The notes beneath the pieces were generated by a model. That model was not told the DNA's origin, did not search any database, and worked only from the letters and a program-made list of their open reading frames with translations. From a virus: a stretch of 64,000 nt of DNA. Within the stretch, counting starts at the first letter, position 1, and every line of letters begins with the position of its first letter. A program made the position numbers and the translations under genes. Below are positions 1 to 50,778 of the stretch, one piece after another. The stretch covers positions 103,585 through 167,584 of the IMG/VR virus record IMGVR_UViG_3300042484_002041, one strand, 5' to 3'.

Positions 1-850
1 ATTTTGATTTTAAATAGCTGCCATTGGTTTGTATGATGTGACGGATGTTGCTTTTTTTCTGTCCGATAATGTAGTCAATCAACTCGACATAAACTTGACT
101 GATAAACAATTCTCCGCCGGCCCATCGAATCTCTACAGGTTGATCTTTAATCTCATCAATAACTAGACGCTTGATCTTTTCAACAATGCCATTGTTAATT
201 TTTCGTATGTACAAGTGTTTGTTGTTGTTGATCAAGGCAGGTCTACAACTGGGACACTTGAAGTTGCAGGTATGATCAAAATCAAATATCAAGTTACTGG
301 GTACTTGTGAAAGCATTATGCTGCGACTGTCGACCGACTCCAGTGGTGCTGTATCGTCAGACGCTGCTACTGCTATTGGGTTAATGCTAAAGAACCTGCA
401 TAGATTATTGTTGCAATACAGATACCTACCGGCTAGTATTTCCTGACGTATGTCTTTGGCAGTCTGAGAATTTAAAATATCATAAATTGAATCAACTGCA
501 TTTATATTGCCGGCGAACTTTGGCAGCCAGGCAGGACTCTGACAGATGAATACGTCCCCGTATGAATTAATGCCCAGGGTTTCCCATGGTGCACGGCAGT
601 GGGCAACGGTAGCAGGTACTTTTTTATTAAAAAACACCTGTCCTTGCATGCGTCTGTTACCGTCGGCAATTTGGTTACCTTTGTTTAGCTGTTGATATTC
701 TTTGTATCTGCTGTCTACCGCAGTGCTAATACGTTGTTGTACAGCAGGATCAGAGGATCCTTTCCCATGTACTACTTCCCAAAATTCCGGCCAGCCTGGC
801 TCGGCTAGGGCTTGATATTCAGCTTCGTTTATGAAGTCATTTAATTTCAT
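1..850 (-). CDS. Radical SAM protein with N-terminal twitch-like Cys region, subgroup C (partial, cut by window edge)
   Basis: My own translation from the ATG at 850 stays open to base 1, so the 3' end lies outside the window. An N-terminal CxxPW...GxxFxC segment (CRAPW, then DVFICQ) resembles the SPASM/twitch auxiliary cluster region. It is followed by a radical SAM cluster CNFKCPSC (Cys195, 199, 202) and a WAGGEL segment where most members have GGEP. It is the closest relative in the window of the gene at 15,538-16,572, sharing the CNxxCPSCR core and the AWLP motif. The start overlaps the previous stop as ATGA, which implies translational coupling. Family knowledge: such enzymes cleave S-adenosylmethionine to start radical chemistry. 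The substrate is unknown. Confidence 0.88.
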   Translation of the reverse strand, partial: MKLNDFINEAEYQALAEPGWPEFWEVVHGKGSSDPAVQQRISTAVDSRYKEYQQLNKGNQIADGNRRMQGQVFFNKKVPATVAHCRAPWETLGINSYGDVFICQSPAWLPKFAGNINAVDSIYDILNSQTAKDIRQEILAGRYLYCNNNLCRFFSINPIAVAASDDTAPLESVDSRSIMLSQVPSNLIFDFDHTCNFKCPSCRPALINNNKHLYIRKINNGIVEKIKRLVIDEIKDQPVEIRWAGGELFISQVYVELIDYIIGQKKSNIRHIIQTNGSYLKSK

Positions 851-1548
851 AATGATGTCAAAAAAGACTGTTGGGTGTAATTTATAAAATCAGCATTTTT
901 ATCGGCTAGCCAGACTTTAGCTAATTCAAATTCGTCAGCAAAGGTAAATGGCACGCGCCACTTTTTTATTAAACAAATTGCATGGCACCAGGCCAGCCAG
1001 GGTACATTATTTGATAGGTCTAAGTCTACTAGTGCCCAGGACGTATTCTTAAAATTTTCTATAGCTGCAGAAACAAACACTGTGTTTGGTTGATACTGTA
1101 CATGATGATGATCTAAAAAATTAAACACTTGCTGGGAAAAAAGCTCTTGATTCAGAAACATCTGATCTGCGTCAATAACTTGGTAATCATAATATTCGCG
1201 CTGTATCAACTTGTCTTTGTTCATTCTCCAACAGGCATTATCAGATAACAAAAAAAATACTTCAAGCTCTGATGAACTGTTATGCTGTGGCGTTCTACTA
1301 TACCATTTATAATAGGAGTTTAAGTATGCAATAAATTGGGATTTGATTCCAACAAAAGATCCAGCAATATCAGTATCAGAAAAAACATTAGCATGTCCGA
1401 CACGAAAATTACCGGTCCTTGGGTGTAGATTAAATTCGTTGTGTGGCGGCTGCTGGATTTCAAATTGACCAGTTTCAAGTCCGTAGAACAAATTGGCTAA
1501 CCAATGACCGCCTTGGCCATTGGGGTAAATCACCGCTGGCTTTGTCAT
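847..1548 (-). CDS. Small protein with P-loop-like N-terminus, downstream partner of radical SAM gene
   Basis: 233 residues of unknown function. The N-terminus (VIYPNGQGGHWLANL) is a hydrophobic strand followed by a Gly-rich turn and a helix with Trp-Leu, the layout of a sulfotransferase-type nucleotide-binding loop. Comparable N-termini occur in the genes at 3,499-4,131, 50,771-51,559 and 54,699-55,505. It overlaps the upstream radical SAM gene by 4 bases and the downstream one by 4 bases (both ATGA), so the three should be co-translated. No 3'-phosphate-binding motif is clear, so sulfotransferase activity is only a guess. It could equally be a nucleotide-binding helper of the radical SAM enzyme. 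Confidence 0.7.
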   Translation of the reverse strand: MTKPAVIYPNGQGGHWLANLFYGLETGQFEIQQPPHNEFNLHPRTGNFRVGHANVFSDTDIAGSFVGIKSQFIAYLNSYYKWYSRTPQHNSSSELEVFFLLSDNACWRMNKDKLIQREYYDYQVIDADQMFLNQELFSQQVFNFLDHHHVQYQPNTVFVSAAIENFKNTSWALVDLDLSNNVPWLAWCHAICLIKKWRVPFTFADEFELAKVWLADKNADFINYTQQSFLTSL

Positions 1549-2804
1549 TTTAATTCTACTAACTCTGGAATTATATCTAACATATTTTCATTCCTTATGC
1601 TGTCGAGTTCATGTGTTTTGCGCCAGAATGTATCTATTAGATGCGTGTTGTCAGTGGCCATCATGAATGTGATTGCAGATTCAAATCCCTGGGTAGCTCG
1701 TTGCAATGGGTCTTGATCACGTAGCCAAACCAAATGCTCACGATACCGGGACTCAATTCGCTGTTTGTATTCCGTAGTAGCAATATCGATTCGATAGTGT
1801 TCTGGATCCTGTAGAATATTTACATTTAAATCCTGCGCTTTTAATAGACCTTTTGCAACCCAATCACGGTGAAAATCTGGCAAGTGCAAGGCATTCATTA
1901 TGCTTACAGTAGGACTAATATAGAAATCCACCTCAGGGCACATGTTGAGCATGTCTTTGCGATTTTGCTCTACTTGGGCCCACACAGTGCCCTTGCGTAT
2001 ATATTCACCATACCTGTACATGCCGTCTAAGCTGGCACCTACTGACACTGATTTGAACTGTTTCCAGTATTCAAATACTGACTTGCCCTTTAAATCCGTA
2101 TGCGTAAAGTTTGTATTATAAATCAACCGCACATCAAAACGGCCGCGCTTGACAAGTTCATTTAGAATGTTATAGTGCTCTTCCATGAGCAAGGGCTCGC
2201 CTCCGGCAAAGTAAATCTGCTCTACATAGTCCAAGTGCGGTTCTAACTGCGTCCACATGTCTGTGGGCGTACGGCCTGCAATATTCAGCACTGTGTTGTG
2301 TTTTTTCCAGTCTCCTCCAGCAAGCTTGGCTTGATCCTGGTACCACTGACTAGAGAAGATGTGCCCGCAACTACGACAACGCAGGTTACATAGGTTGCTG
2401 AATCGAATATCCCAGTAGGTCAGTTCAAAAGGATTTGATTCCAGTTTTTTGATCTGATGCCCGTGATGTTTATTAGCTGACCGCCGGCCTGAAAAGAAGC
2501 CGGCTGCTTCTTGTTCGTAGCAGCGTGTACAGGCTGAATTCTTGCGCTCGTTTAGCATGTCATCTCGCAGGAGTTGCAGAGGTTCGCCTTGCCAGATTTC
2601 TTCAAGTGTTTGAGTGCGGCAATTGCCCACAACTCCGGGTTTCATCTCAGCATGGCAACAAGGATAAGCTTCGCCAGTGGGATAGGCATGTAAGTGCACC
2701 CAAGGATAGATACAAAAAGTTTTAGATTCTTTGAGTAAGAATTCTTCGCGGCTTGTTAATTCAGTGGGCCGTACTAAATCACTGCTACTATAGTTGTATG
2801 ACAT
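1545..2804 (-). CDS. N-terminal-twitch radical SAM protein, subgroup A
   Basis: 419 residues. The N-terminal auxiliary region has FCIYPW (Cys31), PCC (Cys49/50) and CTRCY (Cys92/95), the pattern of a SPASM/twitch domain placed before the radical SAM domain rather than after it. The catalytic cluster motif is CNLRCRSC (Cys139, 143, 146), followed by AGGEP (201-204). The same order and spacing occur in the plus-strand gene at 49,213-50,778, including the IRNE/HRNE-type C-terminus before a final Pro-Glu-rich helix, so the two are paralogues. The stop overlaps the next gene's start (ATGA) and its own start abuts the upstream stop (TAATG). The auxiliary cysteines suggest additional Fe-S clusters. 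Substrate unknown; family members of this layout are usually annotated only as twitch-domain radical SAM proteins. Confidence 0.93.
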   Translation of the reverse strand: MSYNYSSSDLVRPTELTSREEFLLKESKTFCIYPWVHLHAYPTGEAYPCCHAEMKPGVVGNCRTQTLEEIWQGEPLQLLRDDMLNERKNSACTRCYEQEAAGFFSGRRSANKHHGHQIKKLESNPFELTYWDIRFSNLCNLRCRSCGHIFSSQWYQDQAKLAGGDWKKHNTVLNIAGRTPTDMWTQLEPHLDYVEQIYFAGGEPLLMEEHYNILNELVKRGRFDVRLIYNTNFTHTDLKGKSVFEYWKQFKSVSVGASLDGMYRYGEYIRKGTVWAQVEQNRKDMLNMCPEVDFYISPTVSIMNALHLPDFHRDWVAKGLLKAQDLNVNILQDPEHYRIDIATTEYKQRIESRYREHLVWLRDQDPLQRATQGFESAITFMMATDNTHLIDTFWRKTHELDSIRNENMLDIIPELVELK

Positions 2805-3511
2805 TATGTTCTAGGTTGATAAAGTTTAAGCCAGTGGCTTGATATGACATTTTGCAGATTAGAATTGACATCATGATCAAACACGCCCGGAGACAAAAAT
2901 ACAAATTCTGGAAATTGTATAAGATATTGAGTTATATCACTGTGCAATTGGTTTTCTTCATGGGGATCAGCTCTAAACATAATAAACTGACTGCTAGTGC
3001 TTCTACACTTCCATACTATTTGATTAACCCAGTTAGTAAATAAATCAAAATCATCTACCCACCCCAATTGCAGCACTAGGTTTATATTTCTAGTGTCAAT
3101 GGTCATAACTTTTTGATACAGTTGTTTATTACTTTTTACATTGTACACAGTGTGCAGTCCTGTGGGTTCGAAATGTTTAACAACATAACACCAGGCTTGC
3201 TGCGATTGTATGATCACGGGTTGATAGTTTTTTGCATGGCTGCACAGTGCATAGCTCTGATCATAGGATTCTGAATGTTGGTAAGTATCAATACTTTGAT
3301 CTAATAGTATTATCAAATCAAAACAATGTTCTACTGATCTTACAAAATCCACAGACACTGTTCCAACATCAGTATAATAACATCCATTTTTTATTTCAGT
3401 ATCTTCTGTCAACAGTCCATTCAGAGTAACTGCATACTTCTGTGCAATCAAGGCGCTGCGGTCAGCTGTATCCTCGGTACTGTTACCTATACAAAGAATT
3501 AATGATGCCAT
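2804..3511 (-). CDS. Unknown protein resembling the N-terminal extension of the 49,213 radical SAM protein
   Basis: 235 residues, not recognised as a named family. Residues about 65-100 contain a strand and Asp pattern (FDLIILLDQSIDTYQH) resembling residues about 45-62 of the radical SAM protein at 49,213-50,778 (LDRIVVVHGAADVYDY), in a similar alpha/beta setting. This suggests a stand-alone version of that protein's N-terminal domain. It sits between a P-loop-like gene (13-base overlap) and radical SAM gene A (1-base overlap), inside the overlapping cassette. The N-terminus ILCIGNSTEDTADRS is strand-turn-rich, but I see no catalytic motif. Confidence 0.75.
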   Translation of the reverse strand: MASLILCIGNSTEDTADRSALIAQKYAVTLNGLLTEDTEIKNGCYYTDVGTVSVDFVRSVEHCFDLIILLDQSIDTYQHSESYDQSYALCSHAKNYQPVIIQSQQAWCYVVKHFEPTGLHTVYNVKSNKQLYQKVMTIDTRNINLVLQLGWVDDFDLFTNWVNQIVWKCRSTSSQFIMFRADPHEENQLHSDITQYLIQFPEFVFLSPGVFDHDVNSNLQNVISSHWLKLYQPRT

Positions 3512-4131
3512 ACAAGATTACTTTCTCGGGCCCACGACTGCCATAACTGTTCAACAAGAGTCATGTCCAGGTGCAGGTTCAACTGTTGATTTAACTTTTC
3601 AATCTCTTGCATATAGCTATCTTGTTTTAAAAAAGTTAAAAATGGAATAGTGCATGATATATCCCTAAACTGATGTTGTAGTTGTCTTAACTGGGCAAGC
3701 TCACTAACAAAATTCAGAGTGTATTTTTTAGTTTCTTGATTATTAGATAAAAATTCCTGCTGTGTAGAGTCAACATCTATAAAAATAACATGCTGATAAA
3801 ATGTATCCCCCCATAGTGCGTTGGATTCCAATAACTGTGCAAATTCCACTGGGTGCCACCAGTCTATCAGCCAAAGATCGCTTTGTTCATAATGAAGAAA
3901 GTCTACTTTTCCTAGTTTATAACTCAAATAATCTTTTGCTTCTTCTTTTTTCCAATTATTAGCGTCCCATACAACATAACGATTGAATTTTTCGTGTGCT
4001 GATAATTTTTTTTTATATTCTTCTAGATCTACACAATTTGTACCAGTGATTGTTTTTTCAGAGAGGGTTAAAGTTTTGTATAACATACTACCGCCAGAAC
4101 CTGGTAAAAATACAATTGTAGCTTTCAACAT
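3499..4131 (-). CDS. P-loop-like (possible sulfotransferase-fold) protein, partner of radical SAM gene
   Basis: 210 residues. It begins with a strand and Gly-rich loop, IVFLPGSGGSMLYKTL (residues 5-20), matching the 5'-phosphosulfate-binding loop style of sulfotransferase-fold proteins. A second strand, HVIFIDVDST, falls near residue 115, and the C-terminal helix LNLHLDMTLVEQLWQSW has the amphipathic Leu/Trp pattern seen at the end of many phage sulfotransferase-like proteins. The gene starts on the last base of the upstream radical SAM gene (4,131), so the two are tightly coupled. I cannot identify a PAPS 3'-phosphate site, so enzyme activity is unproven. Confidence 0.72.
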   Translation of the reverse strand: MLKATIVFLPGSGGSMLYKTLTLSEKTITGTNCVDLEEYKKKLSAHEKFNRYVVWDANNWKKEEAKDYLSYKLGKVDFLHYEQSDLWLIDWWHPVEFAQLLESNALWGDTFYQHVIFIDVDSTQQEFLSNNQETKKYTLNFVSELAQLRQLQHQFRDISCTIPFLTFLKQDSYMQEIEKLNQQLNLHLDMTLVEQLWQSWARESNLVWHH

Positions 4132-5468
4132 TATAGTGTGTTATACCAGTCTGCTAGGGCAGGAAACGTGCCGACAAAGTCTTTGCCGCGACGTTGATCG
4201 TATTGTGTGTAAAACTGTTTGAAGTCATTTAATAGTTTGGGACTATCAAACGCTTCACTGTGCGGTGTCTCTACAACCTCTAAGTAATCAATTAGCCGCT
4301 GTACTTGATTGATCTCGTGCTCGTGCAGCCAGGGGTTGCTGCGGTGGCGATACATCCAGTCCTGTAGCCGAACACAGTAACGGTCACGCAGCTCATCACT
4401 TAGTACCAAAGGACTTTGAAAGCTGGGGAAGCGCAGTATGTTCACGCTAAAGTTCACACGGCTGCGTCCGTATATCTGCTTGAACTCTAGTAGCTGGTGC
4501 AACAGGTCTGTAAAGCTGTCCAAGCAAAGTGCATTAATAGTGCACATGACATGCACGGCCTTGACAGTGTTGGACTCTAGTAGGGCACACACATTCTCGC
4601 GCCATTCTTCATAGTCCAGGCCATCACGTATGTACTCGGCCTGCGCGGCCACGGCTTCTATGCTGGTGTACAACTCCACGTGCGGCAAAGGACAAATGGC
4701 TTCGATAAATTCTTTCACCTTGGCCAGCGGGAATCCCAGGTTGCTGTTGATTGCTAGCTTGGTAGTGGACTTGCCTTGATTCTCTTTGAACCATTCAATC
4801 AGCTTCCAGGTGTAGCCAGACATCAGGGGCTCGCCGCCTGTGATCCTTAGTTCTTGTAGGGTGGCGTGTAGGTCTGTTTCCCACCACTTGAAGAACGCAT
4901 CCACATACGGATTGACTTGATTAAACGTGTAAAGTTGAGCGCTATCGTGAGCGTGAGTAAAGTGGTTACGCCCATCAGACACCAGGTCGGTATAAGGGCC
5001 ATGCTTTTTAATGTCATTAACCCATGTACTACTGAAAGCAGGGTTGCAATAACTACAAGCGAACTGACAAGTTCGATCAAACGCAATCTCCAGGGTCTTG
5101 AGGTTAACGTCTTCGGTATATGGGATGGCAGTGGCAGCATGTAGATCCTTAATGGGGTAGATTTTTGATTTGTACACACGGTCGCTGATGGCATCGCGGC
5201 CCATGTCTTCAATCTTCCAGCAGTACTCACACCCGGTGGGGCGCTCTCCTGCTAGCATTTTTTTGCGATCGTCCTTTTTCTGGGGCGTGTTGTGCAAGGC
5301 ACTGGGGCGGGCAGTGACTTCCTCCGGACTCACTCCATGTGCAGGCGGGTGGTGACAGCTGGTTGTTTGGCCGCTGCCTAACCATATGGTGGCATTGTAC
5401 CACTTGGCTGCACAGAAACTGCTACTGATGGGGTCAAGGACTTCTTGACGAAAGGTTAAATCATTCAC
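4131..5468 (-). CDS. N-terminal-twitch radical SAM protein, subgroup B
   Basis: 445 residues from the GTG at 5,468. That start overlaps the upstream stop (GTGAATGA) and aligns with the N-terminus of its paralogue at 10,048-11,430; the longer open frame to 5,534 would overlap the neighbour by 74 bases and lacks homology. Auxiliary cysteines lie in FCAAKW (Cys19), SCHHPPAH (Cys38) and CEYCW (Cys80/83). The radical SAM cluster is CQFACSYC (Cys134, 138, 141), and TGGEP lies about 70-75 residues later. The conserved C-terminus DQRRGKDF..TFP is shared with the paralogue. The following P-loop-like gene starts on its last base. Substrate unknown. Confidence 0.92.
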   Translation of the reverse strand: MNDLTFRQEVLDPISSSFCAAKWYNATIWLGSGQTTSCHHPPAHGVSPEEVTARPSALHNTPQKKDDRKKMLAGERPTGCEYCWKIEDMGRDAISDRVYKSKIYPIKDLHAATAIPYTEDVNLKTLEIAFDRTCQFACSYCNPAFSSTWVNDIKKHGPYTDLVSDGRNHFTHAHDSAQLYTFNQVNPYVDAFFKWWETDLHATLQELRITGGEPLMSGYTWKLIEWFKENQGKSTTKLAINSNLGFPLAKVKEFIEAICPLPHVELYTSIEAVAAQAEYIRDGLDYEEWRENVCALLESNTVKAVHVMCTINALCLDSFTDLLHQLLEFKQIYGRSRVNFSVNILRFPSFQSPLVLSDELRDRYCVRLQDWMYRHRSNPWLHEHEINQVQRLIDYLEVVETPHSEAFDSPKLLNDFKQFYTQYDQRRGKDFVGTFPALADWYNTL

Positions 5469-6597
5469 GATGTTGGTTGATAAAGTTGAAAAACTTAGTA
5501 GGGAATTCAGATCGAATTCCTGGCACCATTTCAATCAAGTGCTGCTGGTTGTATTTACAAACTTCCCGTGCAGCAGCTAAGAAACTAGACAAGCTATTAT
5601 TACATAAATCTCCCACAATGTCAATGATTCTATCCATACGGTCCTGATGATTAGCTATACTATCAAAGCTTTCATCAATCAAATGGCCAAATGTTTTAAA
5701 CCCTAGGTTTCGAATATCACGATAAAATCCCGGGCTAGTGGCACAGATCCAAGGGTGACCCATGACCAACTCCTTGGCTATCTTCTCTGTGCGAAAGCTG
5801 TAAGGATAATCAAACACTGTTTCTGTTACCAAACTAAAGTATGTGTCACGGTATACTTCAGGAACAAGATAAATCTCGCCCCAAAGTCCATTAAATAGTG
5901 CATTCTTAACAAATGGCTGTTCTGAATTAGGCTGAATCTTGTTACCTCGGAATTGGGCAACTTCATACTCAGTCGGCAGGCATTGTATAGGTGTAGAAGT
6001 AGTCATTAGATCAATGCCAGACTGGGTCAATCTAAAATGTCGACTGGCTGTAGGTCTGCTATCTAGTATAGTCCATAAGCTGCGATCTAGTAATCCCCGG
6101 CGGTTAAGCTGTTCCCAGATGTATTTTCTATGAGGTCTGGCTCGGCCATTTAAGAAAAGGAAATCATAAGGCTTGTCCACGTGAGTGTAGATTTCCTCAC
6201 TGCGTTTCATTGCTGCCACATTCTCGTCGTAGTCTAGGATCTTTTCTAAAAAATGATCATGCAGTATATAAGGATACTTAGAGTCTAAGTCGCTGCCGCT
6301 GATCAGTAGTACCTTATGGTCAAGTATGAGCTGTTCTAATCCGATTCCTCGCAGCTGACTAACTAGCGGTTCTGAGCCTTCGGCAGAGTTACCAAATATC
6401 ATTATGTACTGCGGGTCCTGGGCCATTGCACAGAACTTTTCTCGATTGTCTAAGTACTGCCGTCGGCCTAGTACGTAGATGGAATCGGGGACCGGAGTAT
6501 GGCTAGCAAAGTCCCAAAACTCGTGTGTGCGCCAGGGCAGTAAAATATTGTAGACTTCACTGAATGTGTCGATTACTAAGTTACGTCTGTTGAGCAT
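5461..6597 (-). CDS. GT10-like putative glycosyltransferase, paralogue 1 of 3
   Basis: 378 residues. A strand and loop LFLNGRARPHRKYI (about 145-158) is followed by a C-terminal half carrying VTETVFDYPYSFRTEKIAKELVMGHP and then LGFKTFGHLIDESFDS. This order, an S/T-E-x and TEK acceptor-loop motif, a 'G-x-P' strand, then GF(R/K)TF and a DE-D pair, is shared with genes 7,321-8,391 and 11,427-12,374. The TEK motif resembles the donor-binding region of family 10 (fucosyltransferase-type) glycosyltransferases. That is an inference from motif style, not an alignment. Its neighbours, an SGNH hydrolase and radical SAM gene B1, fit a glycan-modification operon. It starts 17 bases inside the upstream gene. 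Confidence 0.65.
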   Translation of the reverse strand: MLNRRNLVIDTFSEVYNILLPWRTHEFWDFASHTPVPDSIYVLGRRQYLDNREKFCAMAQDPQYIMIFGNSAEGSEPLVSQLRGIGLEQLILDHKVLLISGSDLDSKYPYILHDHFLEKILDYDENVAAMKRSEEIYTHVDKPYDFLFLNGRARPHRKYIWEQLNRRGLLDRSLWTILDSRPTASRHFRLTQSGIDLMTTSTPIQCLPTEYEVAQFRGNKIQPNSEQPFVKNALFNGLWGEIYLVPEVYRDTYFSLVTETVFDYPYSFRTEKIAKELVMGHPWICATSPGFYRDIRNLGFKTFGHLIDESFDSIANHQDRMDRIIDIVGDLCNNSLSSFLAAAREVCKYNQQHLIEMVPGIRSEFPTKFFNFINQHRE

Positions 6598-7318
6598 GGC
6601 GTTCTACTATCCCTAGAATTCTTTTAGCTAGCAACTGAAAACAATGCCTGGCTGGATGACAGTTGTCAGGAAAGTTTGCGCTGCGTTTGGCAAAGTCTTC
6701 GATTCGTATCTGTTGATCCAGTTGGTCCAAGTGATCAATAATGTATTGTCTTTGACTCAGTTGGTAGTGATCTAAGATACGCTGTATTTTTTCAAAAGAA
6801 AAAAATGTATTAATTGGAGTGTTAATTCCTCCCAGTAGCTCACTGAGCCAATTTGGGATTACATGCCTGGCAAAGGAAAAATTTACAATACTGGATCCAA
6901 CTGGACTTTGCCCGCCAACTACAACAAACGGAATGTTGTATTCTTCACTAATCATCTGTGCGTATTTGTAGTTTTGATGATTAATATATGCTAAACTAGA
7001 ATCAAACTTAGTTATATCAAACTCAGGAAACTGTATGGCTGCTTCCTCAGGATCATCGATGATGATTTCTTGAATGTCTCTAAAGGATTCTGTATGGAAC
7101 CAGACAGCATAATCGTACTGATGATCTTGTTTTAGTGTCCAATACGCATGTCTTAATTGCCCAAAGTTTCCGGCGCTGCCAGCTGATATGTTGGTGACAC
7201 TGTGCCCAAACTCTCTGAGATAATGATCTAGGCCTGTGCCGGGAACAGGCTCAAAGAAATGAGTCTTGTTGGTCCATTCTCCCACACCCCAGCTGTCACC
7301 TAATATAAAAAATCGCAT
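6581..7318 (-). CDS. SGNH/GDSL-family hydrolase-like protein
   Basis: 245 residues. Block I FILGDSWGVGEW (3-14) holds the nucleophile-type GDS motif. A block II/III-like SAGSAGNFGQLRHA (about 47-60) follows, and near the C-terminus DNCHPARH supplies the D-x-x-H pair of block V. All catalytic blocks of an SGNH esterase/acyl-hydrolase are therefore visible in the right order. There is no signal peptide, so it is probably cytoplasmic. Placed between two GT10-like genes, it could deacylate or acylate a sugar, but the substrate is not evident. Only two bases separate it from the upstream gene. Confidence 0.8.
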   Translation of the reverse strand: MRFFILGDSWGVGEWTNKTHFFEPVPGTGLDHYLREFGHSVTNISAGSAGNFGQLRHAYWTLKQDHQYDYAVWFHTESFRDIQEIIIDDPEEAAIQFPEFDITKFDSSLAYINHQNYKYAQMISEEYNIPFVVVGGQSPVGSSIVNFSFARHVIPNWLSELLGGINTPINTFFSFEKIQRILDHYQLSQRQYIIDHLDQLDQQIRIEDFAKRSANFPDNCHPARHCFQLLAKRILGIVERHAQQT

Positions 7319-7320
7319 TA

Positions 7321-15182: not shown

Positions 15183-15484
15183 CTCTGTTTGCTAACTTGT
15201 TCAAACTCCACTAACCATGCGTTCATTTGTTCTTGCCAGCGGCTGTAGGCCAGCAGTTGCAGATCTAAAGTGTTTACTCTTATTGGTGTGTTATACAGAT
15301 CTAGCAATACTACATCTTGTTCAGGGCAAGCCTGCAACAATGTTAGCAACTCTGGGCCAGCACGCCACATACCGCCGGCATGAGCAAACAGCATTTTGGC
15401 TGTGTACTTTTCGTTAAGTAACCGACGAGCAGACTCGTGGTCAAATCGTGCCCGTGAATGAGCGATAAGTTGATCTGTATCCAT
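15179..15484 (-). CDS. Small hypothetical protein, first gene of the accessory operon
   Basis: 101 residues: a helical N-terminal half (RARFDHESARRLLNEKYTAKMLFAHAGGMWRA), a beta segment DVVLLDLYNTPIRV, and a helical C-terminus with MNAWLVEFE. I recall small T4-like phage proteins with the same F-GGMW-A and LLDLYN pattern but no assigned function. It lies 9 bases after a TATAAT element and overlaps the first glycosyltransferase gene, so it leads the cassette transcript. Confidence 0.75.
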   Translation of the reverse strand: MDTDQLIAHSRARFDHESARRLLNEKYTAKMLFAHAGGMWRAGPELLTLLQACPEQDVVLLDLYNTPIRVNTLDLQLLAYSRWQEQMNAWLVEFEQVSKQR

Positions 15485-38197: not shown

Positions 38198-38208
38198 GCT
38201 AATATTTA

Positions 38209-42022: not shown

Positions 42023-45000
42023 TAGTATTCCCTTGCAATCTGTTGTGGTGGTTCAGGATCTGCAGCCATTGGCGTAAATCCAAATGATACATTGGGCTCG
42101 ATCCCGACCTGCTGTGTACCACTAGTGGGAGGATCCGATGGTAGTGCCGCAGCAGTATTTGCTAAATCTACCCGCCTTGGATCTGTGGCAGCAAATGCTG
42201 CCGATGATTGTCCACCACCGGTTAATTGATCTGTATTAATTCCCAACTCGCCTAATGAATTCGGGTCTATGATGTCAGTTTCTGCAGATTGCTGGGTGCG
42301 GGAGTTATTATTAGCAGGATTCGAAAATCTTCTTGTTGATTCAGAATTTAAGTCGGTAATATCCGTTTTCTTGGTTGCCTTTGCCGGGAATGTTATCAGA
42401 ACCCCATCTAGGTCTTGAGTAAACCGACCACGGCTAAAATTACTCGTAACCTCAACTGCCTTGTACACATAAACATTATAGTTAGGACGGACGTTTTGAT
42501 TTGGATTCATCAAGCCTGTATCCATATCATAGTCAACAGGTGTGTTGAACTCAATCTCAAAAAGCACTTCCTGATTTTCAAAATTTATAGTGCCATCGGT
42601 TAAAAAGTTGTTGCTGTAAATCTTTTTACCTTGTAAGCCGTTCCACAACTCGCCTTGTTGTAGCCAGGCTGGATCGCCAACAATGGACATTTTAACCCGT
42701 GCTTGGTCCGCAGGGCTGTACAAGTAGGCGGCTGCGTTAGCGCCAGGCTCATTTGTTTTTCCGGGCTGGCCTTGATCGCTAATATTACTTCTTGTTTGCC
42801 AACTGTTTTTTTCTTGCTCTCGACCGTATGGCGTAGAGGTACGGTTGGTGGCGTTGACTGTGTTGTAGAACAAGTAGTTAAAGTCTTGCTCAAAGGTTAA
42901 AATCTGACTGTTTTGTCCAGTAAACCAATGCTTGTATTGTTTGTGTACACCATTTTTTCGACTGACCGGAAAGTAATCGCTACGAACACCATATACTTTG
43001 TACATGCTGACTTGATAAGTTATTTTATAAGCATAATCGTTGCGCTTGGGGTCATAGCCCTTGGGTGTTACTTGCGTACCAATACGATACCAGGCGAATG
43101 GACCTGCTGGTTTTCCGCTAGGGGTGTCTTTGTCATCAACCTCATTGCCCTCTTTGTCAACAGCAGGAGACCTAAGTTGTTGATCATAAATGTAGGTGCT
43201 ATTGCGCACTGCTTGGTCAATAAACTGTACAATGCTAGTACCTGCTAGTATTGCAGCATTTTTACTGTTAAAGTTAACAGTTTGTTTACTTGACAGCTTG
43301 GCTTGGGCAGCGTCTGCTGGTATTACCATGCCCACAGTAGCATTGCTTGTGAGCTTATTATCTTGCCTCGGCGGCTGCGTTTTGGCGTTTTGCATTGCAT
43401 CATCAACAATGATAATTTCGTACTCGTCGGGTATTGTAAATGTTCCCGGAACACGCTCTTGTTCAAATTTGTTAAGTGCTGCTGCTAGCCCTGATACAAT
43501 TGTCGGATTGGGTGCAGCACTGGCCACAGGTGGCGCAGTTTCTGTACTGGTATTAGCACGGGAAGAATCCGGCACAGGGGCATTATTAGTAGTATACTTG
43601 GCATTGCCAGACAGCAACTCTTTGAGCGTGGTGGCTGTTACTTCAACGTTGTACGGTATGACCCCGCGTGCTTGCCCAGTTGCGATACCATTCTGAGGAC
43701 AAACGGCGCTGCACTCATATTCAGTTAACTTGTTAGCAACACGGAACTTGATACCAGTAAACTGGAAAGGAATAAACTTTTCAACAATAGCAGTAGGGCC
43801 CATTGTTTGGTCAAAGTTGACCACTTCACCATTGACGTTGACTAAATTACCATCCTGGTCGTACCCATAAAATCTAATCACCATTAGATAGTTTTGAGCT
43901 GCATAATTTTGTGGTGATTTTGTTGCTCCTTGCGCTTTGGCCTGTTCCTGACAAGCAAAATACAAGTTATCTAATAAAGAAATGCCATTGGGTTCTGAAA
44001 TACGAAACCCTAGCTCAACTGCATTGTGCGCTCCTCTGGTGCCTTTGCCCATGAGAAGACTGCGTATCTTGACATCATCAATATAATAATCCAGTGGGAA
44101 AAACTGGTTACGAGAAGCAGCAGAGGGTGCAGCTTGATCAGTATTAATGCCCAGCTCACCCACAGTGTTTAGAACAGCTTGATCAGCAGAGTTGCTGTCT
44201 TTTTGTGCAGTTCCCATGGTGCCCTGAGGGGCTCCGCCCGACTGCATCAGCAGTTGCATGCCGTTTGTGGTCTTTTGTGGAGATTGTAATAATTTTGCGT
44301 AGGCCTGGGGACTTGCTATGTAGATGCTGATATTATAGGTATAGCTAGAATATTTGTCAAGCACATTGTCTTGGGGGATTAGTGCAGTTGCAGCAGTGCT
44401 GCCATACGCTGCATTGATGCTGCTGCGCACGGAGTTGTCATCTCCTGGGGCTCCCTTGCCCGAATCTCTAGTAGGGGACGCCACAGGGGTCGCTGCACTA
44501 GAACCAGCGTCTTCATTTAATGCACCAAAGTCTGTGCCCCGGGCAGCGGATTGTGCCGACGGCGCGGCTGCACCGGGTGTTGCTGTAAACGGTGGGTTTG
44601 ATTGTGTGGTGCCTATCGTTCTCGTGGGGGCATTGAGTCCAGTGTCGGTAGTTTTGTCTGGATCAAATGCGTCAGCGTTGCTGGGGGTCTGGGCACTGGC
44701 TGTTGCAGTGCTGGCCGGCGCTGCCGGTGGTGGCACAATTTCACCTGCCGAGACTGGGGGCGCAGCAGGTGGTGTCGGTGTATATAGACTCTTCAGTGAC
44801 GCATCTACTTCATTTATTACAGGGATCATACCTAGAAACCAGGCCGTCTGGGCTGGTGTCGCCGTGGGCGAAGCGGCAGTTCGGTTTATGCCACTGATAA
44901 CGGTAGCAGCAGAGCCGTCAAATACTATACTACCTGAACTACTTATCACCTGAAACGTTACATCCCCGTTGACTGTGTCGAGCATCCCCAGAATAGTCCA

Positions 45001-45054
45001 ATCACCACCCGGTGGTATATTAGGGTAGCTGCGTGTCTGTTGTACGATTGCCAT
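42022..45054 (-). CDS. Large baseplate hub-region structural protein
   Basis: 1,010 residues. The N-terminal 100 residues are beta-like (VQQTRSYPNIPPGGDWTILGML), followed by a Pro/Ala/Ser/Thr-rich linker (about 90-210). A central ordered region (SYTYNISIYIASPQAYAKLLQ; LDYYIDDVKIRSLLMGKG; RFYGYDQDGNLVNVNGEVVNFD) has the strand pattern of hub or tube-initiator proteins. The motif GELGINTDQ occurs twice (about 292 and 938). Placed between the gp53-like pair and gp5, it occupies a hub position; gp27 equivalence is possible but not demonstrated. It overlaps gp5 by one base. Confidence 0.7.
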   Translation of the reverse strand: MAIVQQTRSYPNIPPGGDWTILGMLDTVNGDVTFQVISSSGSIVFDGSAATVISGINRTAASPTATPAQTAWFLGMIPVINEVDASLKSLYTPTPPAAPPVSAGEIVPPPAAPASTATASAQTPSNADAFDPDKTTDTGLNAPTRTIGTTQSNPPFTATPGAAAPSAQSAARGTDFGALNEDAGSSAATPVASPTRDSGKGAPGDDNSVRSSINAAYGSTAATALIPQDNVLDKYSSYTYNISIYIASPQAYAKLLQSPQKTTNGMQLLMQSGGAPQGTMGTAQKDSNSADQAVLNTVGELGINTDQAAPSAASRNQFFPLDYYIDDVKIRSLLMGKGTRGAHNAVELGFRISEPNGISLLDNLYFACQEQAKAQGATKSPQNYAAQNYLMVIRFYGYDQDGNLVNVNGEVVNFDQTMGPTAIVEKFIPFQFTGIKFRVANKLTEYECSAVCPQNGIATGQARGVIPYNVEVTATTLKELLSGNAKYTTNNAPVPDSSRANTSTETAPPVASAAPNPTIVSGLAAALNKFEQERVPGTFTIPDEYEIIIVDDAMQNAKTQPPRQDNKLTSNATVGMVIPADAAQAKLSSKQTVNFNSKNAAILAGTSIVQFIDQAVRNSTYIYDQQLRSPAVDKEGNEVDDKDTPSGKPAGPFAWYRIGTQVTPKGYDPKRNDYAYKITYQVSMYKVYGVRSDYFPVSRKNGVHKQYKHWFTGQNSQILTFEQDFNYLFYNTVNATNRTSTPYGREQEKNSWQTRSNISDQGQPGKTNEPGANAAAYLYSPADQARVKMSIVGDPAWLQQGELWNGLQGKKIYSNNFLTDGTINFENQEVLFEIEFNTPVDYDMDTGLMNPNQNVRPNYNVYVYKAVEVTSNFSRGRFTQDLDGVLITFPAKATKKTDITDLNSESTRRFSNPANNNSRTQQSAETDIIDPNSLGELGINTDQLTGGGQSSAAFAATDPRRVDLANTAAALPSDPPTSGTQQVGIEPNVSFGFTPMAADPEPPQQIAREY

Positions 45055-45055
45055 G

Positions 45056-45313
45056 TTATAACCCCAACACTGAACGTATCAACTCTGGCTTAGGCAAGTA
45101 AATTCCGACACCTACTACAAAGTCAAAGAATGGGTCAGCCAATCTGTTTGGGTTTCTGGCGGCGAATGTCCACCATAATCTAGAATCGCTGTATAAGTCA
45201 AATGCTAATAAGTCTGCAAGACTGCTGTCAATTTCCGTGATGTCTCTCTTTGCAACCGCAATTTGTTCTCGAATACCAGCAATAATTTCTTTAATTTCTG
45301 CAACGGTAGCCAT
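45056..45313 (-). CDS. gp53-like baseplate wedge protein, shorter paralogue
   Basis: 85 residues. ADLLAFDLYSDSRLWWTFAARNPNRLADPFFDFVVGVGIYLPKPELI matches the core of the adjacent gp53-like protein (YDLYQESNLWWVFYQRNPN..PPWDFEAGKMIYIPK) almost position for position. It lacks that protein's N-terminal FTTPYSQFYLD segment and starts with a short coiled-coil-like stretch instead. Two tandem genes of this type suggest duplication. gp53 in T4 completes the wedge and has a LysM-like core. Confidence 0.78.
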   Translation of the reverse strand: MATVAEIKEIIAGIREQIAVAKRDITEIDSSLADLLAFDLYSDSRLWWTFAARNPNRLADPFFDFVVGVGIYLPKPELIRSVLGL

Positions 45314-45316
45314 AAA

Positions 45317-45616
45317 TTAAAACCCCAGTGTGCTGCGCAATGTAGTAATCTTGGGAATGTAGATCATTTTGCCTGCTTCAAAATCCCAGGGTGGTGCAGT
45401 TAACGTGTTGGGATTGCGTTGATAAAACACCCACCATAGATTAGATTCCTGATACAAGTCATATGCCAGTAGGTCTGGGCGGTATTGGTACGTCTGATTC
45501 AACTTGATAAGATTGTCATCGTTCTCTTTGGGGATGGGACGATTGACCATGTTGTCAAGATAAAACTGAGAATATGGCGTAGTAAAGTACGGACTTGTTG
45601 CGTTGTAATTAGCCAT
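45317..45616 (-). CDS. 53: Baseplate wedge protein gp53
   Basis: 99 residues. PYFTTPYSQFYLDNMVNRPIP, then LAYDLYQESNLWWVFYQRNPNTLTAPPWDFEAGKMIYIPK, is the recognisable gp53 pattern (W-WVF and a final I-IP strand, with a LysM-like core). The start coincides with the last base of the gp48-like gene. A shorter paralogue follows directly. Confidence 0.85.
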   Translation of the reverse strand: MANYNATSPYFTTPYSQFYLDNMVNRPIPKENDDNLIKLNQTYQYRPDLLAYDLYQESNLWWVFYQRNPNTLTAPPWDFEAGKMIYIPKITTLRSTLGF

Positions 45617-47190
45617 TACCAGAACCCTCCCTTGAGCAGGCTGCCGCTGGCATATTGTTGCAAGTTAAATATCTTGCTGATGTCCGAGCGGCTTTGGATC
45701 GGCAACAATGTAAGACTGATATCCATTTTAGTGGGCACATAAGTAGGAGAATTAATTTGTAGGGTTGCTGGCGGCGGGGGTTTAGTCATGCCACCGGGTG
45801 CTGCCTTGATGCCCAGTAGTCTGCCCAACACAGCAGTAATGGTAGTCGGAGCAGCTATACCACGATCCCGACGATCAGTCAAGTTGGTACCGTTGTTGGA
45901 TACACTTCCGGCTCGGATGTAGTCCACATCATTAGGAAGATTGTAACTGAAACTAGACACCAACACAGGATGATAGTTGAACTGGTATTGCCCCAGGCCG
46001 GACAAGAAACACACCGGGGGAGGCGCGCCACGCATGGGGTCAGTAGCACCGTAGAACATCTTGGTAACACTGCGGAAAAAGTGAATCACTGCCAACAAAT
46101 AGTTAGCCTCGGACGTGTCCTGTGCAGTAAAAGTACCTGTCAGGCTTATTTCTTCCACGGCGCTGTTTTGATAAAAGTAGCCACGATAGTTGCTGTGCGT
46201 CAAGTCATAGGGAGTATAGTTTGCACGGTACGCAGTTGATATGGTAGGGGTGTAAGGGAATATCACACCATCTGTGTACAACAAAGGTTGCATGATACCA
46301 GCCGCAGACACCTGACCTGCATCAAGCTGCTCAAGTGCTGCAGCCTTGTACAAGTAGGTGGAGTTGGGAGCCAGGCTCAACTTGAATCGCCAGTCGCCGT
46401 CGTTTGCCTGTTTGCGTTGTTGTGACAAGCTGGTTTGATCACGGGCTTTTTGGAGCGTTACTTCTTTGCTAATCTGGGCAATTTGTTCGGTACTCAGTTC
46501 CCGACCTGCTCCTACCCGAGGATCTTTTTTAGGGGACATTGCAGCAACATCATCAGTAATGACGTCGTTAACTGCTTGGTCAGACGTACGGTACGGATCT
46601 TTTGCAGCTTTTGGGACAAAATTTAGCTCTGCTGCGGCATTGGCCGCAGCCAGGTCTTCTGGGTTTCGCTCATCGAACGGAAAAGCTTGTGCGGCCGGTG
46701 CGTCAGTTGTTATAGGTGGTGGTGGCGCTTCAGTTTGCTCATCGTACGGATAGGTCTGTGCGGCTGGGGTATCTGTTGTAGCTCGTGCTGGCGGGACAGC
46801 AGCAACTGCATTAGGATCCCCTACTGTCCCGCCAGGCGGAGTGTTTGTTTGGGTACCGGGCGGCCCGGTTTCTGCTTTTGCAGCCTCTGCGTTGGCATCA
46901 TTACGTAACTTTACTAAAGCTGTACCTTCGGCAACAGCTGATCGGATTTGGGCGCCCAGGGCATTTGATTTATTTTGTAAATCTCCGGCTAGATTAGCTA
47001 ATCGAGCTTCTTCGGCAGTATTACCACTGGCAATGGCCCTTTTTCGCTCGGCTTGTATTTCATCAAATTGCCGTATTATCTCTACTTGTTCTTTTCCTAA
47101 TGAAGCAGCGGTGGCTCTATACTCGGTGATTTGGGCAGTATAGCCTGCGGCTACTTGTCGCCAATCTGCTGCTGTGGTGGGGTCTGCCAT
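45616..47190 (-). CDS. gp48-like baseplate tail-tube cap protein with N-terminal linker
   Basis: 524 residues. Residues 1-110 are a helical coiled-coil-like region and 110-250 a Pro/Thr/Ala/Asp-rich linker. From about 265, DWRFKLSLAPNSTYLYKAA, GVIFPYTPTISTAYRANYTPYDLTHSNY, ANYLLAVIHFFRSVTKMFYG and PPPVCFLSGLGQYQFNYHPVLV match the gp48/gp54-type tube-cap proteins of environmental T4-likes, which start tail-tube polymerisation on the baseplate. First gene of the minus-strand virion block; AGGAT lies 7 bases before the ATG. A poor late-type box (GGTAAATA, 6/8) lies 20 bases upstream. Confidence 0.75.
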   Translation of the reverse strand: MADPTTAADWRQVAAGYTAQITEYRATAASLGKEQVEIIRQFDEIQAERKRAIASGNTAEEARLANLAGDLQNKSNALGAQIRSAVAEGTALVKLRNDANAEAAKAETGPPGTQTNTPPGGTVGDPNAVAAVPPARATTDTPAAQTYPYDEQTEAPPPPITTDAPAAQAFPFDERNPEDLAAANAAAELNFVPKAAKDPYRTSDQAVNDVITDDVAAMSPKKDPRVGAGRELSTEQIAQISKEVTLQKARDQTSLSQQRKQANDGDWRFKLSLAPNSTYLYKAAALEQLDAGQVSAAGIMQPLLYTDGVIFPYTPTISTAYRANYTPYDLTHSNYRGYFYQNSAVEEISLTGTFTAQDTSEANYLLAVIHFFRSVTKMFYGATDPMRGAPPPVCFLSGLGQYQFNYHPVLVSSFSYNLPNDVDYIRAGSVSNNGTNLTDRRDRGIAAPTTITAVLGRLLGIKAAPGGMTKPPPPATLQINSPTYVPTKMDISLTLLPIQSRSDISKIFNLQQYASGSLLKGGFW

Positions 47191-47307: not shown

Positions 47308-48186
47308 TTGGCTACCACTACACCTAGAGTAAACTATCTCAACAATCGAGACCTGCTCAAAGAGATCCACTTGAGCAAGAACACCTATTGTTCCTTTTTG
47401 ACACCTGAACTTGATCATAGATATGATCTAATTTTGCCCAGTGTTAGTAAAATTAATCAAAAGACCATTGCCGAAGCTCGAAAAGCACAGGCCGATCGTG
47501 TCAAATACGACACCGGCGAGGTAATCAACGAGAAGAAGATTCTGGTTACCGATCTTGTGTTCAGGGTCATGACCCGCGAGCACATTCCACTGGCTCCAAA
47601 GAAAAAGCCCAAGGTGTTGGCCAAGAAGAAAAAGATCGAGGACATTTTAGAGTTTGAAGAGATGCCACTGGATGACCCACTAGATGACTTGATCGACGAG
47701 CCCATGCTGGATCCTACTCATGTGCGTGTGAACTTCCCACCGTTCTTTCACTATCGGGTTACTGATCACAAGATTCCATATCTTGTGGGCAAGAGTCACT
47801 GGCGCGGCGATCTCGAAACCGGCGAGTACTGCCGGGATCATGGAACAATGACCAAAAAGCTGGCCCTGATGTTTATCAAGCTGTGCGAACGCTATGCAAC
47901 ACGCAGCAACTGGCGCGGGTACACTTACAATGAAGAAATGCGCGGCCAGGCGCTGCTTCAACTCAGCCAGATTGGACTACAGTTTGATGAGTCAAAAAGT
48001 GCAAACCCTTTCGCATACTACACCGCTGCCATAACAAATAGTTTCACCCGTGTGCTCAATATTGAGAAGAAGATGCAGAACATCCGTGATGACATTTTGG
48101 AAATGAACGGCCTTAACCCAAGTTGGACTCGACAAAATTCCGGCAAAGTGCCAGGCGCTGTCGTTCCTGTTGCTAGCGAAGAATAA
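47308..48186 (+). CDS. 55: Late-transcription sigma factor gp55
   Basis: 292 residues from the TTG at 47,308, preceded by AAGGA at an 8-base spacing. KLCERYATRSNWRGYTYNEEMRGQALLQLSQIGLQFDESKSANPFAYYTAAITNSFTRVLNIEKKMQNIRDDIL is the recognisable sigma-2 region of gp55, which recruits host RNA polymerase to TATAAATA late promoters. An acidic/basic linker of about 60 residues (KKKPKVLAKKKKIEDILEF...DDPLDDLIDE) lies in the N-terminal half and is longer than in T4. The conserved sigma-2 stretch is well preserved. It leads the plus-strand recombination operon and is followed 13 bases later by gp47. Confidence 0.92.
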   Translation: MATTTPRVNYLNNRDLLKEIHLSKNTYCSFLTPELDHRYDLILPSVSKINQKTIAEARKAQADRVKYDTGEVINEKKILVTDLVFRVMTREHIPLAPKKKPKVLAKKKKIEDILEFEEMPLDDPLDDLIDEPMLDPTHVRVNFPPFFHYRVTDHKIPYLVGKSHWRGDLETGEYCRDHGTMTKKLALMFIKLCERYATRSNWRGYTYNEEMRGQALLQLSQIGLQFDESKSANPFAYYTAAITNSFTRVLNIEKKMQNIRDDILEMNGLNPSWTRQNSGKVPGAVVPVASEE

Positions 48187-48199
48187 TACACACTTACAC

Positions 48200-49216
48200 A
48201 TGGCAAACCTATTCAAGAAGGCCATTGTCTTTACGGACATTCACTTTGGTCTGAAAAGCAATAGCCTGCTACACAATCAGGACTGTGAAGATTTTGTAGA
48301 TTGGATCATTGAAACAGGACAAGCACAGGGCTGCGAGACTGGCATGTTTCTTGGGGATTGGCACCACCACCGCGCCTCTATCAACTTGCAGACCCTGAGC
48401 TTTAGCCTTAGGTCCTTGGAAAAGCTCAGTGCTGCTTTTTCACAGTTCTTCTTCATCCCCGGCAATCACGATTTGTACTACCGGGACAAGCGTGACATCC
48501 ACGGTGCAGAGTGGGCCAAGCACATCCCCAACATTCACATCTGCAATGACTGGTTCCAGGAAGGTGATGTTGTAATTGCCCCTTGGCTAGTCGGGGATGA
48601 CCACAAACGTATCGCCCGGATGTCCGGCAAGTACATGTTTGGTCATTTTGAGCTGCCACACTTTAAGATGAATGCCATGGTGGAAATGCCCGATCATGGC
48701 GACATCAAGGTGGAACACTTTGGACAATACGATCAAGTGTTCTCCGGACACTTTCACTTGCGGCAGCGCCAAAAAAATATCAATTACATTGGCAACAGCT
48801 TCCCACATAACTTTGCCGATGCCGGAGACACCAAGCGTGGTTGTATGATCTTGGATTGGGGACAGGAGCCCGAGTATCACGCCTGGCCCAATCAACCGCT
48901 GTACAATGTATGGGACTTGAGCCATGTTATCGATCATGGCGACACTATCCTCAAACACAACATGCATGTCCGGGTGCAGTTGGATATTGAGATTTCATAC
49001 GAAGAAGCCAGTTTTATCAAAGAAACATTTGTCAAGACCCATAATCTTCGCGAGATGGCACTGATTCCAAACAAGCGCCAGTCACTCGAGGACGACATGT
49101 CTCCCGGTGATGTCAAGTTTGAAAGTGTAGATCAAATTGTAACTGATCAGATCACCAAGATTGAATCTGAATTCTACGATCCCAAACTATTGCTGCAAAT
49201 TTATCAAGCTCTATGA
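48200..49216 (+). CDS. 47: Recombination exonuclease subunit gp47 (Mre11/SbcD-like metallophosphoesterase)
   Basis: 338 residues from the ATG at 48,200; an in-frame TTG at 48,170 would start inside gp55 and is less likely. VFTDIHFGLK (DxH), LGDWHHHRA (GDxxH), FIPGNHDLYY (GNHD), FGHFELPH and FSGHFHLRQ are the five metal-binding blocks of Mre11-type nucleases. With gp46 it forms the complex that resects DNA ends for recombination-dependent replication. Its stop overlaps the next start (ATGA), although the next gene is an inserted radical SAM gene rather than gp46. Confidence 0.95.
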   Translation: MANLFKKAIVFTDIHFGLKSNSLLHNQDCEDFVDWIIETGQAQGCETGMFLGDWHHHRASINLQTLSFSLRSLEKLSAAFSQFFFIPGNHDLYYRDKRDIHGAEWAKHIPNIHICNDWFQEGDVVIAPWLVGDDHKRIARMSGKYMFGHFELPHFKMNAMVEMPDHGDIKVEHFGQYDQVFSGHFHLRQRQKNINYIGNSFPHNFADAGDTKRGCMILDWGQEPEYHAWPNQPLYNVWDLSHVIDHGDTILKHNMHVRVQLDIEISYEEASFIKETFVKTHNLREMALIPNKRQSLEDDMSPGDVKFESVDQIVTDQITKIESEFYDPKLLLQIYQAL

Positions 49217-50778
49217 TCAAGGTCCAAGATGCACTGGAGTTGTTGTCGCGCCAGTACAACATCATCGGCACCATTGATCTTGGGCAGTCTAGTTTTTTTG
49301 ATCTTCATAGCTTTTTAAAGTCAGTACATCAAGAGTGCTACCAGGCACTTGACCGTATTGTAGTCGTACACGGCGCCGCCGATGTATACGATTATACAGA
49401 TGCACCTGGGCAAAACATTGTCCAACTACAAAAGTATGCAAGAGAAATTGATATCTCAAATTGTTTTATTGTAGTGGTATCAGGCGACGCCGATATCAAC
49501 CAGGGGCTTAAACAAGCTCGGGATGCGTATGCGCCCGGAGACACCGTGATTGATAGCATTTGTATTGACGCAGAATTTATCAAACAAACATCGCCGGCAC
49601 AGGATACATTTTGCATTCTACCTTGGATGCACTTGTATGTTGGCCCCGATGGTAATGTGTTGCCTTGTTGTGTAGCTGATCAACGGCTGCCGCTAGGTAA
49701 TATCAAACAAGAGTCTATATCTTCGATCATGAACGGGCCTGCTGCACAGACATTGCGCAGTAACATGCTTAACGGGCAGCGTAGCCCAGAATGTGAATTT
49801 TGTTACAATAGAGAAAGTCATGGCCTGCCCGGGCTTCGGATTGGGCATAATAAAACCTACGGGCATCTCAAAGATCCTGTTGCATCTGCGGTAGTCAACG
49901 ACTTTAAACCAGTGTTTCTTGATGTCCGCTTAAACAACATATGTAACTTGAAATGTAGAATGTGCAGCAGTTACTATAGTAGTTCAATTGCGCAAGAAGA
50001 GGTCGAAGTATTTGGTAAGTCTGTTGTTAGAAACACAACAATGATCAACCAGCAACGACGGCAGTATCTACAGGACATCCTAACATACATACCCTCAGTT
50101 AATCACATTTATTTTGCCGGCGGCGAGCCGCTGTTGGCTCCTGAGCATTATCAGATTGTTGATTCAGTGCTTGAACAAAATAAAAACGAGGTATCTCTCT
50201 CGTATAATACAAATCTCACTACATTGAAGTTTCGAGATAGAAATGTGCTCGACCTTTGGAACAACTTTAAACAAATTAGTTTAGGGGTAAGTATTGATGC
50301 CGAGGGCGCAGTGGCCGAATATGTCCGCCATGGGTGCGAATGGAACACAGTAGAGTCAAATTTATTTGCAGTTAAAACACACTGCCCGCATATACAGATA
50401 AACATTGCATCAACTTTGGGTTTTATGAATGTTGCTAGCCTAATTGAGTTGCAGCAACGGTGGTATCAGCAAGGTATTGTACTATTGTCCCAATTTTCTG
50501 TCAGCATGATGACTTCGCCTGCCCATCTGACTGTTAGAGTATTACCTAACCATCATAAGCAGCGGCTTGCACAAGCTATCCAGTCTCATATCAAGTGGTG
50601 CAACGATATAGACCAAAGTCTGGGTGCACAGTGGCAGAGTGTAATTGATTACATGTGGAGCCAGGATGATAGTCATCACTTATTGGAATTCCGTAGACTA
50701 ACCAGTATCCTAGATCAGCATCGTAATGAAAGTTTTGCTAACGTATTTCCTGAATTTAACGACTTGATGCATGACTAA
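49213..50778 (+). CDS. Radical SAM protein subgroup A with extra N-terminal domain, inserted between gp47 and gp46
   Basis: 521 residues. Residues 1-125 form an alpha/beta domain (IVVVHGAADVYDY, CFIVVVSGDADINQG) not found in the other radical SAM copies. The auxiliary region follows, with FCILPWMHLYV (Cys134), LPCCVAD and CEFCYNRES. The cluster is CNLKCRMC (Cys244, 248, 251), then AGGEP (GGEP 303-306). It aligns end to end with the 1,545-2,804 protein. The start overlaps the gp47 stop and its end overlaps the next gene by 8 bases, so the radical SAM plus partner pair is inserted into the recombination operon. Its substrate is unknown; the position could reflect mobile-gene insertion or regulated early expression. 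Confidence 0.93.
   Translation: MIKVQDALELLSRQYNIIGTIDLGQSSFFDLHSFLKSVHQECYQALDRIVVVHGAADVYDYTDAPGQNIVQLQKYAREIDISNCFIVVVSGDADINQGLKQARDAYAPGDTVIDSICIDAEFIKQTSPAQDTFCILPWMHLYVGPDGNVLPCCVADQRLPLGNIKQESISSIMNGPAAQTLRSNMLNGQRSPECEFCYNRESHGLPGLRIGHNKTYGHLKDPVASAVVNDFKPVFLDVRLNNICNLKCRMCSSYYSSSIAQEEVEVFGKSVVRNTTMINQQRRQYLQDILTYIPSVNHIYFAGGEPLLAPEHYQIVDSVLEQNKNEVSLSYNTNLTTLKFRDRNVLDLWNNFKQISLGVSIDAEGAVAEYVRHGCEWNTVESNLFAVKTHCPHIQINIASTLGFMNVASLIELQQRWYQQGIVLLSQFSVSMMTSPAHLTVRVLPNHHKQRLAQAIQSHIKWCNDIDQSLGAQWQSVIDYMWSQDDSHHLLEFRRLTSILDQHRNESFANVFPEFNDLMHD

Follow-up and report, generated by a model that had tools for sequence, protein, structure and literature searches.

A fixed array of five N-terminal-twitch radical SAM genes beside the fibre genes of jumbo phages, with relatives in Bdellovibrionota

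Radical SAM genes of the window and of the whole record

The window analysed is the final 64 kb (64,000 nucleotides) of IMG/VR record IMGVR_UViG_3300042484_002041, which totals 167,584 bases; coordinates refer to the window unless given as record positions. Radical SAM (rSAM) open reading frames (ORFs) were present at all six places named in an earlier note: C1 (1-850), A1 (1545-2804), B1 (4131-5534), B2 (10048-11430) and C2 (15538-16572) on the minus strand, and A2 (49213-50778) on the plus strand. C1 is truncated by the window edge, the complete gene (record 103178-104434) encoding 418 aa. The NCBIfam profile NF033640 (N_Twi_rSAM, N-terminal-twitch rSAM; curated cut-off 170 bits) matched A1, A2, B1 and B2 over their full length, with 393, 380, 308 and 326 bits, respectively. 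C1 and C2, rSAM proteins with an N-terminal SPASM-like domain, scored 85 and 37 bits and thus fell below the cut-off. The SPASM domain PF13186 was detected N-terminally in A1, A2, C1 and C2, and at least four Cys residues precede the CX3CX2C motif in each of the six proteins. The PF13186, NF033640 and Cys-motif evidence agrees on a Cys-rich auxiliary region ahead of the rSAM core, as had been proposed. Judged by their sequences, NF033640 members are predicted to carry two 4Fe-4S clusters and to cleave SAM; the cluster cysteines are intact.

The six genes had been described as three pairs, A, B and C, with exactly two copies per subgroup. An all-against-all comparison within the window gave identities of 33% for A1-A2, 33% for B1-B2 and 26% for C1-C2. 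The entire record, however, holds 13 rSAM ORFs (C1 included), so the three pairs are mostly a window-edge effect. Two further ORFs, at record positions 99036 and 101237, also match subgroup A (25-30% identity to A1/A2, E-values of 1e-26 to 5e-45). Together with a member at record 94468 they lie at most 10 kb upstream of the window, and one more is located at record 1824. These four and A1, A2, B1 and B2 constitute the eight NF033640 members of the record (214-393 bits); aligned together, the eight paralogues were too divergent for use in a genome scan. The claim that so many rSAM genes are unusual for a phage held up, as control jumbo phages of 248-469 kb had one (PBECO4), four (Phosso), four (Vibrio phage QD01) and six (Vibrio phage K566) PF04055 matches.

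Three other rSAM proteins of the record were noticed. Two are MoaA-like (record 39712 and 41781; L011:712-1716 and 2781-3803), the type encoded at 39712 being 29-34% identical to one member of a recurring Bdellovibrionota trio with an N-twitch rSAM (L102, L108, L113 and L114). The third has 734 aa (record 76150-78354; L001:784-2988) and, by eye, an N-terminal B12-binding-like region.

Five rSAM genes form an array of fixed order

With A1 as query, IMG/VR gave 212 matching stretches; the 80 loci listed among them were analysed. A1, B1 and B2 proved to be three of five members (R3, R4 and R5, respectively) of a fixed array, R5-R4-R3-R2-R1. Its order and strand were identical in every locus with the complete set (75 of 75); these do not amount to 75 independent cases, as one virus is represented by some of the contigs in nearly identical copies. 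Phage relatives of A1, B1 and B2 therefore co-occur in the same genomes, as the earlier note had anticipated. R3 is 74-83% identical across the 80 related loci listed, and the CX3CX2C and twitch cysteines were intact in 385 of 385 array proteins. When a baseplate protein (42022-45054) served as an independent seed, the array was found in 13 of 16 contigs, the three negative ones being fragments of 50-88 kb. All 20 long records examined contained 6-17 copies of the NF033640 family.

Accessory genes occupy the R2/R1 gap in 38 of the 75 loci, the R3/R2 gap in 18 and the R4/R3 gap in 8. In the record studied here, they include C1 (2 of the 80 listed loci) and the ORFs within 847-1548, 2804-4131 and 6581-10051. 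An apparent R4-R5 fusion, a 952-aa frame in G023/G032, was rejected, a TAA codon lying between the two genes. In place of the three chemistries on one product that the earlier note had envisaged, there are no fewer than five conserved rSAM proteins, accompanied by variable additional ones. That five rSAM genes keep one order next to the fibre genes in 88 or more jumbo-phage contigs points strongly to a single pathway.

Neither the NF033640 family nor the occurrence of rSAM cassettes in the host-recognition regions of phages is new. The host-recognition region of pelagimyophages combines tail-fibre genes with glycosyltransferases and rSAM cassettes (PMC7029224). There, the rSAM genes are variable additions, whereas here five orthologous genes keep their order across a jumbo-phage lineage. 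Neither the ordered array nor the glycosyltransferases are part of the NF033640 family definition, and the open-access literature searched yielded neither a function of this family nor a paper dedicated to it. We found no prior description of the fixed five-gene array and its Bdellovibrionota link in the open-access literature searched.

Phage setting

The array-bearing relatives are giant phages of lake and sea, with contigs of up to 352 kb. At 40532-47190 lie structural genes similar to those for the baseplate and virion of jumbo myophages; the protein encoded at 45616-47190 shows ~31% identity to Sinorhizobium phage Phosso and to the 121Q/PBECO4 group. PBECO4 has a similar local order of gp46, gp47, sigma factor, structural protein, gp25 and hub. 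An ORF of 4,822 aa (19825-34293) has fibre genes on one side and baseplate genes on the other, and Phosso carries a 4,555-aa virion protein at the matching position. In this isolated phage, too, four rSAM genes adjoin fibre genes and a giant tail protein, a layout like that of the array cassette, although they gave a single, weak NF033640 match. Identity with the moraphages, 24 of which have a lysine-tRNA ligase (PMC12619734), is unlikely, as 11 records lacked a match to PF00152 (class-II aminoacyl-tRNA ligase).

A2, which has an additional N-terminal region of ~130 aa, occurs sporadically (5 of the 80 listed loci). Together with the ORF at 50771-51559, it lies between a gp47-like gene (SbcD, 48170-49216) and a gp46-like gene (SMC/AAA, 51569-53332). 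Since gp46 and gp47 are neighbours in PBECO4, the A2 region (48170-53332) resembles an insertion into this recombination-nuclease pair.

The cassette around the array

The array belongs to a cassette with the usual order fibre genes, u101, GT265, GT256, u119, GT307, R5, GT-B-like, R4, R3, R2, R1. In the window, all of the cassette genes described below with window coordinates lie on the minus strand. At the head of the cassette is fib331 (16626-17621), a Ser/Thr/Gly/Ala-rich, Cys-free and presumably fibre-like protein that has no family in the databases. The likewise fibre-like fib456 (17631-19001) gave a match to PF11962 (Peptidase_G2, IMC) below the cut-off (9.6e-5). The small conserved ORFs u101 (15179-15484) and u119 (13281-13640) displayed no obvious precursor-peptide features. 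GT256 (13631-14401; 73 of the 80 listed loci), its paralogue GT265 (14385-15182; 70 of 80) and GT307 (12368-13291) constitute the conserved glycosyltransferase core. GT256 is GT-A-like by eye and matches phrog_1903 (unknown function), while GT307 was assigned as a GT-A/GT2-like glycosyltransferase via its homologue in L117 (11400-12950; PF00535, E = 7e-7). The cassette glycosyltransferases and fib331 had no match in the cultured phages searched.

The protein encoded at 5461-6597, which mostly sits between R5 and R4 (73 of 80 listed loci), has no sequence family that we could find. Its AF2 model (pLDDT 93.7) gave weak Foldseek matches, for the most part to GT-B glycosyltransferases. Paralogues of this GT-B-like protein are encoded at 11427-12374 (28 of 80) and at 7321-8391, the latter an accessory protein that shares its C-terminal domain. 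Further accessory genes encode an SGNH-hydrolase-like protein by eye (6581-7318; GDSWG motif, no Pfam match), a short UDP-glucose/GDP-mannose dehydrogenase-like protein (8388-9179; PF00984, 4e-18; PF03721, 1e-12) and an NAD-dependent sugar epimerase/dehydratase (9176-10051; PF01370, 3.7e-39). The accessory ORFs at 847-1548 and 3499-4131 (5 of 80) have no family and that at 2804-3511 (2 of 80) no convincing one. C1, C2 (4 of 80 listed loci) and the genes at 7321-10051 look like variable decorations.

R1 is followed by U365 and an O-carbamoyltransferase (family match E = 7e-53), then, on the opposite strand, by an amidinotransferase (record 93449; E = 1e-13) and two GT-B-like genes, and finally by GT676. 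A ThyX gene flanks the cluster. Within the cluster region, strong hydrophobic segments were confined to ThyX, a 61-aa ORF and, marginally, one accessory ORF; neither a flippase or polymerase nor any further clear membrane protein emerged from the scan of the cassette.

Phylogeny of the array proteins

Two trees were calculated, one with FastTree (146 rows) and one with IQ-TREE in quick mode (62 rows); long branches limit the deeper joins in both. R1, R2, R3, R4 and R5 each formed a separate, well-supported clade in both trees. R4 and R5 grouped together (support 98 and 100), bacterial genes of L109 lying next to R5, and R3 grouped with A2 and Bacteriovoracaceae genes (98 and 87). R1 was sister to L104 (100 in both trees). 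The bacterial partners differ by member, namely L104 for R1, L101 for R2, L097/L099 for R3 and L109 for R5. Because R1-R5 form clades of their own with which Bdellovibrionota genes group, the array is best read, as far as sequence comparison goes, as a set of old paralogues common to Bdellovibrionota and not as recent duplicates.

Thus, the six window genes are paralogues, as the earlier note had stated, but each of R1-R5 represents an old orthologous lineage of its own. A1 and A2 do not form an exclusive clade, since genes of Bacteriovoracaceae and other Bdellovibrionota group with both. B1 and B2 do share one clade, yet not as an exclusive pair, given the bacterial genes beside B2 and the additional phage copies. 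That three duplicate pairs arose within the phage is hardly credible: the best reciprocal matches of the window do pair up and R4 and R5 share a clade, but the five-way orthology in at least 88 contigs, the bacterial genes that group with A1 and A2 and the window-edge effect speak against it, so that the idea is contradicted for A, and for B and C it holds in part, in the sense of old paralogy.

Relatives in Bdellovibrionota

A genome scan for N-twitch rSAM genes gave 21 loci, for the most part in Bdellovibrionota. Scores above the NF033640 cut-off were obtained in 60 of 192 genomes from this phylum (that of G041, Halobacteriovorax; 6 of the 192 were the scan's own seeds) compared to 3 of 299 Pseudomonadota genomes. 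GT307 was present in 13 of the 192 genomes, all 13 of them family-positive; the hypergeometric P of 1e-7 is uncorrected for relatedness and overstates the evidence because the sampled genomes of one phylum are related. In seven genomes (G040, G044, G079, G121, G133, G135 and G227), GT307 directly adjoins an N-twitch gene, and in G150 and G160 both lie on one contig, tens of kilobases apart or less. GT307 and N-twitch genes therefore also co-occur in a second type of organism. Glycosyltransferases within three genes of N-twitch genes were mildly enriched (13/119 vs 6/147, p = 0.028), while 14 of the 21 bacterial loci had no recognised glycosyltransferase within this distance.

Loci L117 and L115 display the phage order, fib331-u101-GT265-GT256/265-GT307-rSAM-rSAM. 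The L117 contig belongs to Bdellovibrionales and carries, upstream, a pheT-like gene and others of housekeeping type; L115 has the look of phage sequence that ended up in a bacterial bin. In a single case, L105, a homologue of the MAT fibre Bd2133 (8ond, E = 5e-12) adjoins an N-twitch array. The terms "radical SAM" and "glycosyltransferase" are absent from the text of the MAT fibre paper (PMC10769870). Bdellovibrionota thus resemble the phage cassette in their multi-copy N-twitch arrays, their GT307 neighbours and one array beside a Bd2133-like fibre, but their arrays are chromosomal, and the fixed R5-R1 order was not seen among the loci inspected. Two single Bdellovibrionota-type genomes, G039 and G040, each contain more than ten clustered N-twitch rSAM genes above the cut-off.

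Structural comparison

The N-terminus of a profile built from 48 family members matches the C-terminal twitch of BtrN (residues 186-257), and the core matches SkfB/anSME. Therefore, the domain order is reversed: BtrN, a sugar-cyclitol twitch rSAM enzyme of aminoglycoside biosynthesis, has the core followed by the twitch, whereas in NF033640 proteins the twitch precedes the core. The latter also possess an extra C-terminal region, and the overall structures are not close. The best PDB matches of the R3 AF2 model (pLDDT 90.8) were anSMEcpe, sactisynthases, SkfB and also BlsE. As the best TM score was only ~0.39, we found no close solved relative of R3.

Possible function of the cassette

The GT-A/GT-B-like proteins, the BtrN-like twitch and the missing membrane export genes make glycan tailoring the best reading. 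We consider the chances even that the cassette encodes a soluble glycan-tailoring pathway of the host-recognition region, acting on a fibre or on the host surface. The glycosyltransferases would build a glycan, as the putative common product. The five N-twitch rSAM enzymes may then act one after another, abstracting hydrogen from sugars or glycosylated residues so as to deoxygenate, epimerise or oxidise them. The single auxiliary cluster would hold the substrate or oxidise it, and the carbamoyl and amidino transferases would cap the glycan. In known pathways, carbamoyltransferases and amidinotransferases of such families serve to decorate small molecules, sugars and cyclitols among them. Because fibre genes head the cassette, the adjoining virion fibre is the likeliest acceptor, with the host surface as the main alternative. 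Glycan tailoring is favoured by the fibre-adjacent position, the capping transferases, the BtrN twitch, the GT307 link and the pelagimyophage precedent (PMC7029224). Counting against it are the R3 structure, as near to peptide-acting enzymes as to BlsE and close to none, the weak Foldseek basis of the 5461-6597 assignment, the lack of a database family for fib331 and the 14 bacterial loci without a neighbouring glycosyltransferase.

The same fibre genes at the head of the cassette, the peptide-acting nearest folds (anSME, sactisynthases, SkfB) and the MAT-fibre homologue beside the L105 array would also suit a RiPP-like modification of the fibre polypeptide itself (epimerisation, cross-links, C-C or thioether bonds), with the glycosyltransferases acting separately. 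We regard this as rather improbable, since Pfam scans detected no RRE/PqqD-type peptide-recognition domain in ten rSAM enzymes, fib331 and fib456 contain no Cys, and the presence of carbamoyl- and amidinotransferases points rather to the decoration of sugars or small molecules. Unlikely to a similar degree is an alteration of host surface glycans for receptor masking or superinfection exclusion, which has been proposed in print for the glycosyltransferases of the pelagimyophage region (PMC7029224) and would agree with the accessory sugar-nucleotide genes. O-antigen and capsule synthesis loci have a flippase and a polymerase, whereas the cassette lacks such membrane proteins, and the fibre-adjacent order is kept even in the distant L115 and L117. 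DNA can be a substrate of glycosyltransferases and carbamoyltransferases from phages, and ThyX flanks the cluster; nevertheless, DNA hypermodification with sugars or carbamoyl groups on phage bases is very unlikely, given that nine records gave no TET/JBP match (in a search without positive control), that the cassette sits with fibre genes instead of replication genes and that the Bdellovibrionota arrays are chromosomal.

Speculatively and with low probability, a multi-step rSAM pathway would modify viral tail fibres, at the level of glycans or of residues, and its partnership with glycosyltransferases would also serve the prey-recognition fibres of predatory Bdellovibrionota, the genes having been exchanged between predators and jumbo phages. 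Should the fibre indeed be the acceptor, radical-modified structures would take part in host recognition by phages, and we found no description of such structures in the literature searched. The array provides a gene set, a glycosyltransferase partner and Bdellovibrionota relatives with which the rSAM chemistry can be sought. Two minor features of the record were observed besides: at least seven small paralogous ORFs of 70-85 aa with unassigned function (record 61643-67196; L012:3643-9196), and, at 55484-56503, a second amidinotransferase-like protein with 32% identity to the cassette copy at record 93449.
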